From a virus, in IMG/VR virus record IMGVR_UViG_3300044707_000069, positions 1-20,643 of that record: DNA of 20,643 bases. One strand, written 5' to 3'. Under the pieces are notes generated by a model. That model worked only from the letters and a program-made list of their open reading frames with translations. It did no database searches and was not told the origin of the DNA. A program made the position numbers and the translations under genes. Numbering within the stretch: the first letter of the stretch is position 1; the number at the start of each line of letters is the position of its first letter. This document shows positions 2,289 to 13,543 of this stretch, piece after piece.

Positions 2289-2915
2289 TTATGGTTGTTC
2301 CGACTTGTGAAGATCATAGTAAAAAGAATCTGTATCCTCCGTCACCCACTTGTCGGACTGATTCTCCACGCTGGGCAGTTCGGTATCAACACGAAACTGC
2401 TTTAAGTTCTCTGGCAACTTCTTCGTAACCCAATTACTATCCCGCCAGAAGATTCGGTTGTTTGGCATACAGAGTAAGTAGCCATCATCACCCGCGAACA
2501 CATGACCGCACTTGTAATCTGACGGCTCATCGCTGTATGGATTGTTAAACCAATCCACGGTAAACAAGTATGTACCCCATACCTTAGTCGCATCTCTAAG
2601 TAGTATCTGCGCGCGATGGTAGGCGAGGAAGCTGTACTCGGTTACAGTTACATTCTCAGAGAAGCAATCCCAAAGTTGTTTGTAGTTAAATGGGATGTCG
2701 GCCTCTGGCTCGTGCGTGTATATCTCCGATAGCGGTACTCGACTCCGCAGCATTCCAGAGTCAGTCATAACGTGGAAGGTTAGGATTGCCCCAGCGCAAG
2801 ACTGCAAGGCGAACACATAGACGTTGTAAAACTCCTTGTCCTCATCGTTCTTGGTAAAGAATGACTTCCTCACCATAGCCTTGAAGCTAGGGATGTTCTC
2901 GTTAAGCGTTGCCAT
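2289..2915 (-). CDS. Hypothetical protein, 208 residues
   Basis: I do not recognise this protein. The start chosen is ATG 2915-2913, which shares its A with the TAA of the oxygenase gene upstream (TAATG); the longer in-frame start at 3014 would run 100 bases back into the oxygenase gene and encodes an unlikely cysteine-rich leader. The product begins MATLNENIPSFKAM, is rich in aromatic residues (YNVYVFALQS, WGTYLFTVDWFNNPY, FAGDDGYLLCMPNNRIFWRD) and looks like a globular, mostly β protein without transmembrane segments. It sits directly after the 2OG oxygenase, so a joint role is possible, but the sequence itself does not show one. Confidence 0.75.
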   Translation of the reverse strand: MATLNENIPSFKAMVRKSFFTKNDEDKEFYNVYVFALQSCAGAILTFHVMTDSGMLRSRVPLSEIYTHEPEADIPFNYKQLWDCFSENVTVTEYSFLAYHRAQILLRDATKVWGTYLFTVDWFNNPYSDEPSDYKCGHVFAGDDGYLLCMPNNRIFWRDSNWVTKKLPENLKQFRVDTELPSVENQSDKWVTEDTDSFYYDLHKSEQP

Positions 2916-3487
2916 TATCGCCAAGCAGGTCCAGTAAACCAAGCCACAAGCACCCAGCGCGTTCCCCAAATAGGCGCACGCGCACGATGCTCGATGTAGG
3001 ATGGAAACCAACACCCTGCTCCCTGCTCGCGGATGAACTGAGGATTCACCATATCAGCCTTAGCCTGCAACCCTCCACCGATATACTCCTCTGGCGCGGA
3101 CAGGTTCACCACCGCTGTCAACTTGCGTACTGGTGCTTCGGATGTGTAGGTGTCCCAATGCCAGGAGAACTTCTGTAGTGGGCGGTATCGCAGGATCTGC
3201 AACTGTTGGATGCCTTGGATGTCGAAACGCCATTGCTCGGCATTGATGCCATCCGTAATCTCGCGCATCACATTGTAGATCCACTCGTAATGCTTGGCGA
3301 AAGGTATCCAGCACGATGAGCAGGTTCGCGTACGTGATACCGTACGTGTTACACCATCCTTCGAAAGCACTGGCGCACGCTTCATCCCGATCACTTCCGC
3401 ATCCTGGCGCAGCATCTCGCACTGCGTCCTAGTTAGGACATAGCGATCCACTGAAGCGGTTAATACCTTCTGCTTAAACTCGTTCAT
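2915..3487 (-). CDS. 2-oxoglutarate/Fe(II)-dependent oxygenase
   Basis: The 190-residue protein has the facial triad and co-substrate residues of the prolyl-4-hydroxylase-like 2OG-Fe(II) superfamily. These are HWD at 110-112 (iron-binding His110 and Asp112), then a distal His167 in FPSYIEHRA, and Arg177 in GTRWVLVAWFTGP, the expected 2-oxoglutarate anchor. The GGG at 137-139 precedes the expected jelly-roll strand. Members hydroxylate proteins, small molecules or, more rarely, nucleobases; phages often carry short forms of unknown target. The start at 3487 was chosen because it overlaps the preceding TGA (ATGA) and has GAGGAA five bases upstream; an upstream in-frame ATG at 3502 overlaps that same Shine-Dalgarno. 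Motifs are complete, so the enzyme is likely active. Confidence 0.87.
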   Translation of the reverse strand: MNEFKQKVLTASVDRYVLTRTQCEMLRQDAEVIGMKRAPVLSKDGVTRTVSRTRTCSSCWIPFAKHYEWIYNVMREITDGINAEQWRFDIQGIQQLQILRYRPLQKFSWHWDTYTSEAPVRKLTAVVNLSAPEEYIGGGLQAKADMVNPQFIREQGAGCWFPSYIEHRARAPIWGTRWVLVAWFTGPAWR

Positions 3488-3681
3488 TTGAGTTCCTCGC
3501 ATAGTTCAAGCAACGTCTTGTTTAGTGCATACTCGAAACAAGCCATCTTATCTTTAGCTAGGTGCTGACGGCCAGCCTTTGCCAACGCCTCGTAAAGATC
3601 ATCGTCAATATCGATCATTACCCTTACGGCTTTTTGCTCCAATGTTTTTACCAGAGTTATCTTTCTGTCTTTCTTTTTCAT
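3484..3681 (-). CDS. Ribbon-helix-helix-like small protein, copy A
   Basis: A 65-residue product starting MKKKDRKITL. After a basic N-terminal tail comes a β-strand (KAVRVMIDID, 17-26) and two helices (DLYEALAKAGRQHL and KDKMACFEYALNKTLLEL). This β-α-α order is that of MetJ/Arc ribbon-helix-helix DNA-binding dimers; the fold assignment is inferred from pattern only. It aligns without gaps with the protein at 4787-4975 with about 17 identical residues in 41. The start at 3681 was chosen because AAAGGAA lies at a proper distance and the ATG overlaps the TGA of the small membrane protein upstream (ATGA). A longer in-frame reading from 3792 would lie over the membrane protein gene and is probably an artefact. 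It may repress or autoregulate phage genes. Confidence 0.65.
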   Translation of the reverse strand: MKKKDRKITLVKTLEQKAVRVMIDIDDDLYEALAKAGRQHLAKDKMACFEYALNKTLLELCEELK

Positions 3682-8228: not shown

Positions 8229-8567
8229 ATGAAAGCAATAATAACTATGACACTGACGGCGATGCTGATGGCATCGGTGATGGCGGATGATTTTGATGGC
8301 GGAGTATATGACTCTGGATACGCCGTGTTTAGCGGTGGCAAAGGATTGGCTATAACATCAAATGGATTGATAGTAGATAATGGCATACTCAAGCAAACTC
8401 CTAATGGATGTTATTCCTCATGTGGAGATGTTTATTATGGTGGGAACGAAATTGTAACAAAGAGTGGATACCTTTATTATGGATCAAATGGTACAAAGGT
8501 GCAGGTTGGTCAATATTATTCTGGAACGGCTGGATCAACCTATGTGTTTGAGGACGATTCAGAATAA
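8229..8567 (+). CDS. Small secreted protein, only plus-strand gene
   Basis: The 112-residue product has a clear N-terminal signal peptide: MKAIITMTLTAMLMASVMA, with cleavage likely before DDFDGG. The mature part is rich in Gly, Tyr, Ser and Asn, with short β-like units (SGYAVFSGGKGLAIT, SNGLIVDNGILKQ, DVYYGGNEIVTKSGYLYYGSNG) and two cysteines in CYSSC; it looks like a small β-rich exported protein. It is on the opposite strand to everything else. Its start is 38 bases from the divergent nuclease start, and its TAA is immediately followed by the stop (TAG read on the minus strand) of the muralytic gene, with no space between. Phage genes set like this are often morons acting on the host envelope. 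No family recognised; no strong promoter or Shine-Dalgarno is seen upstream. Confidence 0.75.
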   Translation: MKAIITMTLTAMLMASVMADDFDGGVYDSGYAVFSGGKGLAITSNGLIVDNGILKQTPNGCYSSCGDVYYGGNEIVTKSGYLYYGSNGTKVQVGQYYSGTAGSTYVFEDDSE

Positions 8568-9293
8568 CTAACCACTCCCAAATGCGTTAAGCCTATTATT
8601 GATTCTGTTCTCAAGACCAACAATAAACTTCTTCCTTCTTGGGTCAGCACCAGCCCTAGCTCTTTCATCATTTAATTGCGCTTGGCTTGCTGCAATCATA
8701 AGTTGCTTTGGATTTACTCCTCCAATAGCAGCAAGCGTCTTTGGACCAATAGCTCCGTCAACCGCAACCTTTACTCCCAGCGAGTTTAGTCCCTCTTGGA
8801 GATACTTTGTTGCCCCGCCCATACCTCTATTAAACGCCATATCCTGGGCGAATGGCTGGATTGCTTGTGGAAGCTTCGATACGAGAGGTGCTGTGTATTC
8901 GCTGATATATTTTGCGGCTGCTTCCTCCCTGTCTTGGGCTGGCAAGCCTGCAATCTTTCTGAATGCTTCTGGATGGTATCTGTCATTGATTCCAGCTACC
9001 TCATAATCTCCACCCATATCACCAGCAGGCAAGGCATATACCGCAAGATTGCCTTTCTTGTCCCTTCGGCCTTCCCAATTTACTGTTGTTTTAGCTGCAT
9101 TTATTAAGTCAAGGCCAGATTCCCTAGCCTCTGGCTCAATAACATCATAACCAAGATCAGTTTTGGGTTGTTCTGGCGTGACGCTCTCAATTTGATTATT
9201 GATTGGTTGTGCTTGCCGTACAATTGGCTGTTGAACTGGAGCAGCACTAGGTTGGGGAATGTTTGCCTGCATCATCTTTTCGTAGCGTTCCAT
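8568..9293 (-). CDS. GH108-like peptidoglycan hydrolase with PG-binding domain
   Basis: 241 residues. Residues 1-60 are a Pro/Gln-rich disordered arm that includes TDLGYDVIEPEARE (45-58), a motif shared with the large protein upstream. The catalytic region resembles glycosyl hydrolase family 108 muramidases: NWEG (72-75) with candidate catalytic Glu74, DMGGDYEVAGINDRYHPEAF (92-111), DREEAAAKYISEYT and MAFNRGMGGATKYLQ (152-166). The next part, VKVAVDGAIGPKTLAAI (174-190), is a peptidoglycan-binding segment. No signal peptide or holin is adjacent, and it lies after the internal virion genes, so it may be a virion-carried wall-degrading enzyme for DNA entry rather than, or as well as, an endolysin. 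AAAGGAGAAATAAA precedes ATG 9293. Confidence 0.8.
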   Translation of the reverse strand: MERYEKMMQANIPQPSAAPVQQPIVRQAQPINNQIESVTPEQPKTDLGYDVIEPEARESGLDLINAAKTTVNWEGRRDKKGNLAVYALPAGDMGGDYEVAGINDRYHPEAFRKIAGLPAQDREEAAAKYISEYTAPLVSKLPQAIQPFAQDMAFNRGMGGATKYLQEGLNSLGVKVAVDGAIGPKTLAAIGGVNPKQLMIAASQAQLNDERARAGADPRRKKFIVGLENRINNRLNAFGSG

Positions 9294-9294
9294 T

Positions 9295-12200
9295 TTATTT
9301 CTCCTTTGGTGTCAAGTAATCCCTATTGTACTTTAGGAATTGCCTTTTGCCATCTTCAGCACCACGCTCATACGCTTTTTCTAAAGCCTTAATTTTGAAA
9401 TCTGCATCCATTCCATCAAATGTTGCGCTCTGGAATAGATTATCCACAAGAGCCTTTCTTCTTTGGCCTACATACTCTTGATAAATTGCGTACTGGTTCT
9501 GATCAAGCTGGTAAGTAATTTTTTTGTCCATAACATTCCTTGATGGAACAGATGGCAACGCATCGGCATTTCCAGTTTCCTTCCATAACCTATATAGGGC
9601 AAGGTTGGATTCATCACTCGGAACTACTCTTGACCTTGTGAAATCAAGAAAATTGTATAGAAACGGATTTGCTCCTTCTGGAGTCTGTTTAACTGGATTC
9701 CCCCACATATCTCTTTTGAGTGGCAACTCTTCTGCTCCAATAGCCTCGCGCGCAAACTCTGGCATCTTTGATTTAAGAACATTTGCAAATAGTTGCAGGC
9801 TATCATCAGTTTTGGGATCAACCATATTTTCCCGACTTGCCTTATTGAAGGCCTGCAATGTATTCGGGAATGGTATTGATGAAATTGTTCCGTATAGTGA
9901 TTCTAGGTAGCTGTCATAATCTTCTTTTGAGATTGCATTAAGAAGAGTGTTTGTACTCTTTAAGAATGTTTGATTGAGCGTATAGCTTGCGACTGAAGGC
10001 AAGCCCTTGAGGGTTACATCAAGAACATCCTCCAGCAATCCAGAGCCTTCATTCTTGCTTAATACATTTGAATAGACGTTAAAGATTGTTCCAAGATAAC
10101 CAAAATTCTCGTAGCTCTTTATGTCGTCACCAGCTTGGATTGCTGGATCTTCTCCATTCAATAGTCTATTCAATCCAGACATATTTATGGTATTCGGAGG
10201 TTGTGTTTCGTATTGGATTCCACGCTCTTTTGCAGACTTCGAGGCAGATCCAGTAATAACTCCAGCGCGATACAAGGCAGCAGCCGTACCTCCAATTACT
10301 GTACCAACTATTCCTTTTGCCGCAGCTTCGAGTGATTTTTTTCTGTCTCCCTTAACTGCGTAATACGCGCTTTTAGAAAACGCCAATCCTGGTACTGCAA
10401 CATCAACAACATCAGTAACAACATTAACAGGAGTTTTTGTATATGGAGCAATAACTGCTTTGGTTAGCGGACCAACAATGGGAATACTTTTTACCGCATT
10501 TGCAACAACACCAACCACTGCCGTAAGCTTTGTGTCCTGCTGAAATGTGGCTTCTGCCGCTTCATTTGATATATTTTTTAATTCTGTTTTTGTCGGGAAT
10601 CTTACGCTTGCAATAACTTCCTCTGGGGTTTTGCCAGCCAAAATAGCTTGTTGGGCAAGAAGTCTTCCCTCTGCAAATCCTCTGGCTGGAACGTCGCCAA
10701 GAGTTAATACCCTGCCTACTGGCTCAGTGTACAATCCAATTATCCCTTCGGTAAGTTTTCGGACTCGGTCAATAAGAGCAATATTACCTTTTGCATTTGT
10801 AACCATGTCCTTTCCAGTAAATGCTTGGGCTAAAGATTTGAATACAGTAAATCCCTTAACTCCTTCTCCAGCCAGAGCAGATGACGCTGGAATGCCTTCA
10901 CCAAGGAATGCCCTAATTGCTTCCTTGGTTTTTTCAGCCCCACGAATTATTGCGCCTCTTGTTGTCAGCGCAGACTGAGCCATTGTCCTTGGCTGCTTTG
11001 TTACATAGCTTATTACCGCATCGCCAGCGTTTGCTAGTGATCTCACGCCAAGCTGTCCAACTGCTCTAGCTACGTTGAATACTGGATTTTTTACAAGAGA
11101 CAATGGGCTTAACAGTGTAATCTGTATTCCTTGTGGAAGTGTTTCTCCGAGAATTTTCTTTGGGAAAATGCTGTCTGAATATTTCTGAAGTTTTGCTGCC
11201 GCGCTGGCTGCTGCAATTCTTGCGTTTCCAGCAATAGCAGCAGCCTTATCGGTTAAACTTGATCTATAATTTGCTTCCGCTTTAACCAATTCGGCTTTTG
11301 CATTTTTACTTGCATTAAATAATCTAAGAACCTTGTCGCTTACGTCTTTGGGTATATTTCTATTAGCCGCCTCCGCTGCCTTTGATATGGTCGCCAAATA
11401 CCCAGTAGGCGTGTTTAGGTACTCACGCACATTCCTCAAGGATACGCCAGCCAGCGATGCTGCCTTAGTAAATTCATCCCAATTGATTGCAGCAGATGCT
11501 GGGTCTGCATCAATCTGCCTTGCGGCTAGTATTGCATTTGCCCCTGCTCTTTCGGCATCATCATACGCTGACGAGGTAATGCTTCTTCTTGCAATGACAT
11601 TCAGCTCGTCATCGGATAGCTCTTCAAGGTTTCCCTTAATAGCACCTAGTGGAACATTCTGCCTTACCGTGCTTGGCTGAAGTGCAACCTCTGCCTTGAA
11701 TGGCTCTGGTGCTTTTTCGGATTTCAACACGCGTTCAGCAGTTCTTGCAATTTTAGATCCTTCTGGAACTTCTGGCATCTTAAACTCTGGCCGTACTGTG
11801 CCAGACTCAAATCCAGCCTCTCCAACTACGCCTTGGCGAATTGGTTGCTGACCCTCAATAGTCCCGATAACCTCTGATGGCTGCGCCTTTACCTGCAAGG
11901 ACGGAGTAGCCTTTGGCTGCAACAATTGCTGAAGCTTGTCAATACCCTTTGTAGGACCAGCAAGTCCAGCACCAACAGCCATAGGCGTTGCAATCTCAAG
12001 AGACTTTGTTGTTATTGGGAACATCGCAATATCGGCTTCACGCATTCTTTGATAATCCGCATAGCCTTGCTCACCAGCCAAGATTCTTGCAAGTCCAGCT
12101 TGCCCCATTTCGCCTGCTTTATATCCAGCAGCACCACCAGCCAATCCTCCAGCAAGTATCCCAACTGGACCAGCAGGTGCGCCAGCAACACCGCCAAGGA

Positions 12201-12810
12201 TTGTGCCAGCAACAGCACTAGCTCCAGGTATAATCTGTTCTCCAACCGACCTTAATGATGCGCCAACGAGTGTTGGTGGCTTTTCCTCAATACGAACAAC
12301 CCGACCATCCTTGGCCTTCCCAACGGCAAATCCAACGCCTTTCTCTTTATCAAATCCAGAAGATACAGTAAGCACGCCCTCATCCATTGCCTTCCTAACG
12401 GCTGGCAACGCTGCTGGTTGGATCATTCCCTTTTGGATTGCTTCTTCGGTTGGAGCGTATCCTGCGGATATAGACCCATCTGGCCTTGTCTCTGGAGGTA
12501 AAGCCTCAAGCGCATCTGTTGCCTTGAGCAACGCTTCTTGTTGAGATAGTCCAGACTGAAGGTTTTTATTTACTTCATTTGCTAGAAAATCAGCACGCTC
12601 TGGCGCGTAAACGTCAAGCGGATTCCCGCCCTGCGAAACGTAGTCTCGCTTGATTTGGGATAGGTACTGCCTATCTGGTTCGATTACTTCAAATGATTCC
12701 GAAGGCGTTGGTTTAGCGTTTTCTGGCTCAATTACGTCATAGCCAGCATTCTGCTGATCTGCCTTTACCTCTGGCTCAATAATGTCAAACCCCAAGTCGG
12801 GACTTGCCAT
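9295..12810 (-). CDS. Very large internal virion / polyvalent-type protein, 1171 residues
   Basis: The N-terminus holds three copies of a short acidic motif: DLGFDIIEPE (5-14), AGYDVIEPE (22-30) and SFEVIEPD (39-46). A glycine-zipper stretch, SAVAGTILGGVAGAPAGPVG and following (198-229), could insert in a membrane. A central Ala/Lys-rich helical part follows. The later segment VIAPYTKTPVNVVTDVVDVA, the Ala-rich helix, and RAGVITGSASKSAKERGI are like the LPD38-type domain of large polyvalent phage proteins (recalled, not verified). The last 150 residues are rich in aromatic residues and helices. Position between core-type proteins and the muramidase fits the ejection protein role filled by gp15/gp16 in T7-like phages: forming a channel across the cell envelope. 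Ribosome site AAGGAT precedes ATG 12810 and the gap to the gene before it is four bases. Confidence 0.7.
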   Translation of the reverse strand: MASPDLGFDIIEPEVKADQQNAGYDVIEPENAKPTPSESFEVIEPDRQYLSQIKRDYVSQGGNPLDVYAPERADFLANEVNKNLQSGLSQQEALLKATDALEALPPETRPDGSISAGYAPTEEAIQKGMIQPAALPAVRKAMDEGVLTVSSGFDKEKGVGFAVGKAKDGRVVRIEEKPPTLVGASLRSVGEQIIPGASAVAGTILGGVAGAPAGPVGILAGGLAGGAAGYKAGEMGQAGLARILAGEQGYADYQRMREADIAMFPITTKSLEIATPMAVGAGLAGPTKGIDKLQQLLQPKATPSLQVKAQPSEVIGTIEGQQPIRQGVVGEAGFESGTVRPEFKMPEVPEGSKIARTAERVLKSEKAPEPFKAEVALQPSTVRQNVPLGAIKGNLEELSDDELNVIARRSITSSAYDDAERAGANAILAARQIDADPASAAINWDEFTKAASLAGVSLRNVREYLNTPTGYLATISKAAEAANRNIPKDVSDKVLRLFNASKNAKAELVKAEANYRSSLTDKAAAIAGNARIAAASAAAKLQKYSDSIFPKKILGETLPQGIQITLLSPLSLVKNPVFNVARAVGQLGVRSLANAGDAVISYVTKQPRTMAQSALTTRGAIIRGAEKTKEAIRAFLGEGIPASSALAGEGVKGFTVFKSLAQAFTGKDMVTNAKGNIALIDRVRKLTEGIIGLYTEPVGRVLTLGDVPARGFAEGRLLAQQAILAGKTPEEVIASVRFPTKTELKNISNEAAEATFQQDTKLTAVVGVVANAVKSIPIVGPLTKAVIAPYTKTPVNVVTDVVDVAVPGLAFSKSAYYAVKGDRKKSLEAAAKGIVGTVIGGTAAALYRAGVITGSASKSAKERGIQYETQPPNTINMSGLNRLLNGEDPAIQAGDDIKSYENFGYLGTIFNVYSNVLSKNEGSGLLEDVLDVTLKGLPSVASYTLNQTFLKSTNTLLNAISKEDYDSYLESLYGTISSIPFPNTLQAFNKASRENMVDPKTDDSLQLFANVLKSKMPEFAREAIGAEELPLKRDMWGNPVKQTPEGANPFLYNFLDFTRSRVVPSDESNLALYRLWKETGNADALPSVPSRNVMDKKITYQLDQNQYAIYQEYVGQRRKALVDNLFQSATFDGMDADFKIKALEKAYERGAEDGKRQFLKYNRDYLTPKEK

Positions 12811-12814
12811 TGGA

Positions 12815-13543
12815 TTATTTTATCCTTACTTTTCCGACACCTGGAATATAAACAATATCTCCAGCTTTTGCCCCGCCTTGGATTGCCTCGTCTCTTGATT
12901 TATAGGTAGGAACTGCTTGCTGTGTTTGTGGCTGTGCGGATGGCTGGGCTGTTGGTTGCTGTGCGGCAGGCTTTGCAACCGAAGGCATCCCATAGCTTTG
13001 TGGCATTTGAGTATCTTGTAATGCCTGCATCTGAATCCCAGCAGTGTTACGCCTTTGCTCGGTTTTAATCATTTCTTGTTCTATATCTTTCAATTGTTTG
13101 GCATATGACTTCCCAAACATTTCCCCAGGAAGGAAATCTGGACCAGGTTTTATATTTCCACCAGCTTGAGAGGCTTCAATATCCCTCTTCTTTTGAAGAT
13201 TTGTTTCAAGCTCAACTTCGGCTTTAGCCATATCTGCTTGGTGCTTTGTAAACTTTCTGGATTGCTCTAATTCCCAATCGACTTGACGTTGTTTAGCCCA
13301 CTGAGCCTTCTGTTCTGGTGGTAATGCTTTAAATGGAATTTGCTCTCCGTTTACATCAATCTTAAAGTCTTCAAATGGCAAAACCTGCCTTTGCTGTGTT
13401 TGCTGGCGAACTTGCTCTTCTTGTTGGTATCTTTGCAATTGAGCATTCTGGAGTTGCTCTCCAAGCGCAGCCCTACGCAATGCGTCTTGATCCCCAAAAG
13501 TCTGTGGAAACATTGCCGCCAAATCTAAATTAATTTTGCCCAT
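12815..13543 (-). CDS. Gln-rich internal virion-type protein, 242 residues
   Basis: The product is rich in Gln and predicted coiled coil (LQNAQLQRYQQEEQVRQQTQ near residues 31-50, KAEVELETNLQKKRDIEAS around 107-125). A low-complexity Pro/Ala/Gln linker leads to a small C-terminal module, YKSRDEAIQGGAKAGDIVYI then PGVGKVRIK, a GD-x-vyipG pattern common at the ends of phage structural proteins. No enzymatic motif. Position between two similar proteins and the large ejection-type protein suggests a core or ejection component. AAGGAGATTT five bases before ATG 13543 overlaps the TAA of the gene upstream. Confidence 0.65.
   Translation of the reverse strand: MGKINLDLAAMFPQTFGDQDALRRAALGEQLQNAQLQRYQQEEQVRQQTQQRQVLPFEDFKIDVNGEQIPFKALPPEQKAQWAKQRQVDWELEQSRKFTKHQADMAKAEVELETNLQKKRDIEASQAGGNIKPGPDFLPGEMFGKSYAKQLKDIEQEMIKTEQRRNTAGIQMQALQDTQMPQSYGMPSVAKPAAQQPTAQPSAQPQTQQAVPTYKSRDEAIQGGAKAGDIVYIPGVGKVRIK

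Follow-up and report, generated by a model that had tools for sequence, protein, structure and literature searches.

Short acidic tags of a large phage protein and a muramidase vary together with the C-terminal module of a third protein

Introduction

How short-tailed phages package and release the right internal proteins together is, to our knowledge, poorly known. The window analysed here, one whole IMG/VR virus record (IMGVR_UViG_3300044707_000069; 20,643 bases), raises this question in a specific form: two otherwise unrelated proteins encoded by adjacent genes, a very large protein and a muramidase, carry the same short acidic peptide. In a preliminary description of this DNA, the peptide was proposed to be a packaging or docking tag that brings both proteins to the same, unnamed internal core partner, or else a sign of recombination between the two genes.

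The locus and its proteins

In transcription order, the minus strand of the window encodes tail genes, a 183-residue protein, a 506-residue protein and three proteins designated P0003, P0001 and P0002. The features relevant here are the following (tags located by motif scan):

12815..13543, minus strand: P0003, 242 residues, proposed tag-binding hub, directly upstream of P0001 and covarying with the tags
12818..12916, minus strand: P0003 reader module, the last 33 residues, AVPTYKSRDEAIQGGAKAGDIVYIPGVGKVRIK, predicted helix plus beta-hairpin
9295..12810, minus strand: P0001, the large protein, 1171 residues, with the tag-bearing N-terminal arm at residues 1-46
12769..12798, minus strand: P0001 tag 1, DLGFDIIEPE, residues 5-14
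12721..12747, minus strand: P0001 tag 2, AGYDVIEPE, residues 22-30
12673..12696, minus strand: P0001 tag 3, SFEVIEPD, residues 39-46
8568..9293, minus strand: P0002, the muramidase, 241 residues, an arm of ~60 residues followed by catalytic and PG_binding_3 parts
9129..9158, minus strand: P0002 tag, DLGYDVIEPE, residues 46-55

By its position and size, P0001 is presumably a gp16-like ejection or internal virion protein. It has no Pfam or NCBIfam match at E 0.1, only two weak PHROG matches, both of unknown function, and no tblastn match among the named phages of INPHARED, where P0004 has no relatives either; in IMG/VR, 22 loci with relatives of P0001 were found. P0002 fits PG_binding_3 (PF09374) with 32.9 bits, above the curated cut-off of 24.6, and the holin-associated N-acetylmuramidase family NF040573 of NCBIfam with 41.5 bits, below the curated cut-off of 240; its best PHROG match is phrog_315, endolysin (3.2e-12). 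Elsewhere in the window, a 112-residue ORF with a signal peptide-like start (8229-8567, plus strand) converges on the muramidase gene from the opposite strand and matches nothing in PHROG or NCBIfam, nor anything in Pfam above cut-off; the protein encoded at 2915-3502 on the minus strand fits a PHROG family of 2OG-Fe(II) oxygenases (E 1.7e-20).

All four tags are present as first described, three in the large protein and one in the muramidase. Among the 26 minus-strand ORFs taken as genes (6435 residues), the strict pattern [YF][DE][VI]IEP[ED] has 4 matches, all in the arms of P0001 and P0002, compared with 0.002 on average and at most 1 in 500 residue shuffles. A looser pattern, picked after relatives had been inspected, finds the same 4 matches and none besides (shuffle mean 0.61, maximum 5). 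The likeness of the underlying DNA is equally real: exact copies of TTATTGAGCCAGAG lie at 9129-9142 and 12769-12782, and a copy with 2 mismatches lies at 12721-12734; this similarity between the two genes is imposed by the shared amino acids.

Tag types among relatives

In the closest IMG/VR relatives with the ends in view, both proteins carry the tags of the window, three in the large protein and one in the muramidase; in L011, one of the three large-protein copies is altered. A small clade (L014, L017, L022 and L024) deviates from the type-A tags, with LEFVPDE, IEFVPDK, IEFVPDT or close variants in the large protein of L014, L017 and L024, and LQFVPDES in the muramidase of L014, L017 and L022. 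In more distant relatives, further spellings pair GYEVLEDE/GYEVLPDE in the large protein with GYEIISEE in the muramidase (type C), LEFVPE with LDFIEE (type D), GYDVIEPD with GYEIIEEE (type E) and LEFVPE with FEFVPE (type F). These spellings form two classes, YxVI-like (types A, C and E) and xEFV-like (types B, D and F), and the large arms hold two or three copies at a spacing that is specific to the type. The large arms of types G and H carry three DPEGLLE versus three LDKYF/LASYF/IEKYF-like tags, and their muramidase is without such a tag; a universal muramidase tag was rejected, since types G, H and I lack it. L046 retains the beginning of P0003 and part of the large protein but has neither reader nor tags. 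As a separate observation, the muramidase arms of types D to H (L043, L044, L133, L177) contain a second element resembling LTGxxYxxVPEEIR, which is similar across tag types and may address a different, unchanging partner.

A DNA scan for pairs of EFVP[DE] yielded 9 stretches, of which three (L217, L220 and L222, two of them contigs already in the locus set) belong to the tag-reader system, with a reader upstream in each; no reader was seen in the remaining 6, so that the motif alone is not specific. Bacterial assemblies yielded 17 relatives of the muramidase, none of which carries a tag in the 130 residues preceding the catalytic part; by their titles, most of these assemblies are Verrucomicrobiota MAGs, the others being Calothrix, Nostoc, Rhodoplanes and a Proteobacteria MAG, and prophage may account for some of the contigs. 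A scan for TAT-initial YxVIEP pairs, a pattern that window-type arms would rarely fit, gave 0 matches. Type-B arms and readers have no relatives in INPHARED at E up to 10.

Joint presence and absence of tags and reader

The sequence of the C-terminal module of P0003 (~33 residues), referred to here as the reader, goes with the tag type. Readers end in YKSRDEAIQGGAKAGDIVYIPGVGKVRIK in type A, YNTPEDALKAGVKEGDRVIIGGRAGTFKRPK in type B and FNSLQEAKAAGVKPGELIYINGKPGRLQARQ in type D; GKVR-like ends accompany YxVI-like tags, and G[RT][LF]-like ends accompany xEFV-like tags. Muramidase and large protein occur together in 177 loci, 154 of which also show P0003 and the N-terminus of the large protein. 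Several loci are overlapping stretches of one contig. Pooling of identical combinations left 111 distinct ones: 67 with a reader (A 17, B 1, C 6, D 31, E 3, F 9), 36 without a reader-like end, and the others with ends of types G (3), H (3) and I (2). The single full type-B combination stands for 5 loci, and L022, L024, L041 and L220 are partial type-B contigs.

The muramidase arm has exactly one tag in all 67 reader combinations, and the large arm has two or three in 66 of them; the exception, L167, has a GTG start and carries both tags. Neither arm is tagged in any of the 36 combinations without a reader-like end. The A-F tag pattern is likewise missing from all arms of types G, H and I, including the two type-I combinations, in which a reader-like end is present and the tag is missing from both arms. 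Where relatives encode both proteins and the motif is missing, its loss is thus joint. Both the tag and the reader patterns were tuned after relatives had been inspected; because of this post hoc choice, the test was repeated pattern-free, using the best 8-residue match between the two arms. Compared with shuffles, the arms resemble each other at p<0.05 in 54 of 66 reader combinations (L167 excluded; 44 at p<0.01), in 1 of 36 without a reader, in 1 of 2 of type I and in none of 6 of types G and H. The 12 reader combinations below significance are all of type D. The muramidase tag, ~3.5 kb away, is likewise predicted by whether the reader is present.

Matching of tag and reader classes

Agreement extends from presence to class. 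When muramidase catalytic domains were placed on a tree (58 of 98 rows, limited to 12 per type), the classes of reader, large tags and muramidase tag agree in 39 of 39 rows, namely those with tag and reader, the large tag of L165 and L167 (GTG start) having been supplied by hand. The class needs three changes on this tree, in which type B is nested in type A and L186 is the sister of L183 (same contig as L035; support 100/91). The independent pairs number two on well-supported branches and three on all branches; with only two, a sign test cannot reach significance (p 0.5). When the six large arms are paired with the six muramidase arms in all possible ways, one genome per type, 2 of 720 pairings score as high, the true one included. 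Scored over 8 residues, the large arms of types A, B and F fit their own muramidase arm best, whereas that of C fits the E muramidase better, that of D the F muramidase and that of E the A muramidase. With three of six large arms fitting another type better, the matching is by class, not by type.

The initial reading of the peptide as a docking tag is thereby supported at the level of sequence: relatives retain the tag in both proteins, both lack it in all 36 combinations that have no reader-like end, and its class changes in both along with the reader.

Natural swaps between genomes

Closely related genomes with different tags bear on the identity of the partner. Between L035 (type A) and L037 (type B), most of the compared flanks are 95-99% identical. 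For the P0003 C-terminus and the large arm of L037, none of 14 type-A loci provides a DNA match, and the L037 muramidase arm matches these loci over only 14-22% of its length, versus 83-98% identity of the other segments to L035. The same three parts resemble type-B contigs: the P0003 end and the large arm are 85% identical to L024, the muramidase arm 85-87% to L041 and L022. Both arms of L037 are thus unlike type A, and the body between them is type-A-like. L035 is not the best type-A match of this body (83-84%), since several other type-A loci reach 85-91%; a single imported tract may therefore have covered everything up to the muramidase arm, in which case the muramidase tag would be a weaker independent witness.

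Across whole A/B records (matched ORFs), the portal is 100% identical, TerL 99.8%, the 652-residue internal protein 98.6% and the major head protein 97.7%; a 232-residue protein is 100% identical, a 152-residue protein falls within 97.7-100%, and the homologue of a 617-residue protein is at 91.7%. P0003 (83.6%), the large protein (86%) and the muramidase (80%) differ more, as do TerS (86%) and ORFs at 84, 78, 41 and 30%. Among the genes beside the tags, P0003 would be the simplest candidate partner. The internal core partner proposed initially is, by sequence covariation, most likely P0003, probably acting via the C-terminal module.

Other pairs provide further kinds of swap. In the G/H pair L175/L177, the P0003 C-terminus is 24% identical, compared with 79% for the N-part, 87% for the large body and 85% for the muramidase arm; a value of 29% for the muramidase catalytic part is an artefact of the truncated ORF in L175 (79 residues). 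The G/H pair L182/L176 shows 71% in the P0003 N-part, 26% in the C-part, 66% in the large body, 96% in the muramidase arm and 92% in its catalytic part. Between types D and E, P0003 has diverged over its length (N-part 23-24%, C-part 40-41%), together with the large arm (18-23%) and the muramidase arm (38-48%); the large body is at 54-66% and the muramidase catalytic part at 81-88%.

An unrelated variation affects the large protein itself: that of L032 (5851-9996) is ~214 residues longer owing to an insert near residue 319, which contains a YHGS...GLVFVS stretch, and longer ORFs are also present in L019, L021, L040 and L057. The insert gives sub-threshold Pfam hints only, including ART-PolyVal (E 0.17); a possible ADP-ribosyltransferase-like domain on an ejection protein is suggested.

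The reader module

When the reader of the window was fused to the arm, AlphaFold2 predicted a helix and a hairpin (block pLDDT 68-82), comprising one helix and two strands of 3 or more residues, with all tags unstructured; in a type-E fusion, tag 1 was modelled as a strand at low pLDDT. Both fusions are single tethered chains with low overall confidence. In one representative of each of the six types, the reader tails have charges of +2 to +4 and the tags of -1 to -3. This pattern fits strand addition with salt bridges, by analogy with the short linear motif (SLiM)/beta-hairpin pairs of NRPS as described in the available part of PMC9113145.

Foldseek searches with the reader gave nothing under E 0.001. 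Profile matches to DegP/PDZ and a few other PDB entries (E 0.003 upward) span only ~10-25 residues, and a Molydop_binding match in Pfam, seen for the type-B reader alone (E 0.0035), is below the cut-off; all were taken as short-motif resemblance.

Two groups of loci show other arrangements. L071, L088 and L097 have a reader-like P0003 end (SFATEEEARRAGKKxGDxVIIGGRRGILEP), a large protein starting with MAFRPLDGE and no tag of the usual pattern; they may perhaps carry a single-copy variant tag. In the tag-less loci L076, L087, L101, L108, L112 and L047, the large protein starts like MPILDVPGVGxFDLPDxxTPEQ, and the end of the upstream P0003-like protein is a short sequence resembling a hairpin (QTTIDENGRIVIPR, KYMTDPATGKVMRVK); start and end are possibly another matched pair.

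A proposed mechanism and its alternatives

The tags may bring two proteins, the gp16-like ejection protein and the separate muramidase, to the P0003 reader, such that both are packaged and ejected together; we assign this reading a probability of roughly 0.6. Peptides resembling [YFLI][DEQ][VIF][IVLA]xx[ED] would act as short linear docking motifs that bind the ~33-residue C-terminal module of P0003, a putative helix plus beta-hairpin with a basic tail, probably by strand addition to the hairpin and acid-base complementarity. With two or three copies on the ejection protein and a single copy on the muramidase, both would be loaded onto a P0003 hub, and the cell-wall enzyme would thereby be packaged and ejected together with the channel-forming protein. 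Physical binding, location in the virion and the role in packaging and ejection are what we infer. Tag and reader would make up a code whose matched parts can be exchanged, at least as far as the two classes go. Going further, reader and cognate tags may form mutually exclusive pairs that are swapped as units between related phages, a switchable address that keeps the ejection machineries of co-infecting relatives unmixed and employs at least two unlike reader modules (A-F and G/H); this extension is tentative and perhaps doubtful. If peptide and module do switch as a unit, the loading of internal proteins becomes testable by tag swaps and pull-downs; the pair would also provide a rule by which ejection proteins of unnamed phages can be recognised from sequence, and it could supply small docking pairs.

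The tags could instead dock on another virion protein, such as the portal, the 652-residue internal protein or the major head protein, the P0003 C-terminus changing only as a DNA neighbour. The stop codon of P0003 and the ATG of the large protein are 3-5 bases apart, so that one recombination moves both and the joint swap could be linkage; the swapped stretch of L037 may moreover be a single tract. Yet the three proteins named are 97.7-100% identical across A/B genomes with different tags, the reader predicts the distant muramidase tag as well, and between types D and E the change in P0003 exceeds the adjoining end, all of which makes a different partner unlikely. The agreement in tag class between muramidase and large protein would also follow if the tags bound each other or linked the two proteins directly, without P0003. 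Such pairing would leave unexplained why the P0003 C-terminus appears, disappears and changes class with the tags, and it is disfavoured by the acidic character of the tags in all six representatives; we regard it as very unlikely.

About as unlikely is a role of the tags as cleavage sites of a maturation protease. Their N-terminal position and the acidic residue after hydrophobic ones would suit propeptides such as those of T4, whose internal-protein leaders are cut during maturation (available part of PMC5694885), but two or three copies at type-specific spacing and, in type A, a proline after the glutamate would not, and a search that was not exhaustive recognised no protease among the genes differing in the A/B pair. 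Similarly improbable is that P0002 is a lysis endolysin with a tag unrelated to the virion: its best named relatives are endolysins, but its gene adjoins those of internal proteins, its tag is common to the large protein, and the 17 relatives in bacterial assemblies are tag-less. The reading for which least can be said is gene conversion or segment duplication between the adjacent genes without any function, the second of the two original proposals. It is prompted by the 14-base identity between both genes, and tags within one large arm do share codons slightly above expectation (53.3% versus 47.1%, 555 positions). Where muramidase and large tags have the same residue, however, the codon is the same in 384 of 790 cases (48.6%; 66 combinations), close to the 47.5% predicted by codon usage, which makes gene conversion unlikely; the tags are, in addition, kept across divergent lineages and absent from both proteins in all 36 combinations lacking a reader-like end.

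Relation to known systems

Titles and opening lines of abstracts in the open-access literature revealed no comparable tag-reader system, which is weak evidence of absence, and such tags are not described in the accessible portions of structure papers on ejection or cargo proteins (PMC10172136, PMC10925440). Docking of the two tagged proteins on P0003 would nevertheless have several partial precedents, compared here as they appear in the parts of the cited works that were available. The capsid targeting sequence (CTS) of T4 is a short peptide on different internal proteins that brings them into the head, a single N-terminal leader of 10-20 residues that is removed by a protease (PMC3012670, PMC5694885). 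Like the CTS, the tag is common to otherwise unrelated proteins (67 of 67 reader combinations), both of which are presumably internal. Unlike this single leader at the extreme N-terminus, it occurs in two or three tandem copies in the large arm and internally in the muramidase (residues 46-55), and it covaries with a reader module on a third protein, in exchangeable spellings. Encapsulin cargo carries a short targeting peptide as well, at the C-terminus, that binds the shell (PMC7925596); here, the tags sit in N-terminal arms, and the head protein is nearly constant (97.7% identity across genomes with different tags).

In T7, the peptidoglycan hydrolase is the N-terminus of gp16, one of the ejection proteins gp14, gp15 and gp16 (PMC8954989), and in phage PhiM1, hydrolase-like domains reside inside ejection proteins (PMC11440229). 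The present locus resembles that of T7 in that a very large protein is encoded beside smaller internal proteins, presumably with a peptidoglycan hydrolase among them. Whereas the hydrolase of T7, being the N-terminus of gp16, is coupled to the ejection protein covalently, the muramidase is here a separate, tagged protein, and no N-terminal lytic transglycosylase domain or T7 homology was found in P0001 (Pfam and NCBIfam at E 0.1, PHROGs). For the proposed contact itself, the nearest description is the solved SLiM/beta-hairpin docking pair of NRPS and PKS-NRPS systems, which combines strand addition with salt bridges (PMC9113145). Compared by description rather than by sequence, both systems pair a short peptide with a small hairpin-based domain; the order is reversed, with a C-terminal SLiM and an N-terminal alpha-beta-beta-alpha-alpha domain there, and N-terminal tags and a C-terminal reader of ~33 residues here. 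Tags shared between internal proteins are thus known, whereas tandem copies, a covarying reader and exchangeable spellings would be the new elements suggested by this locus.
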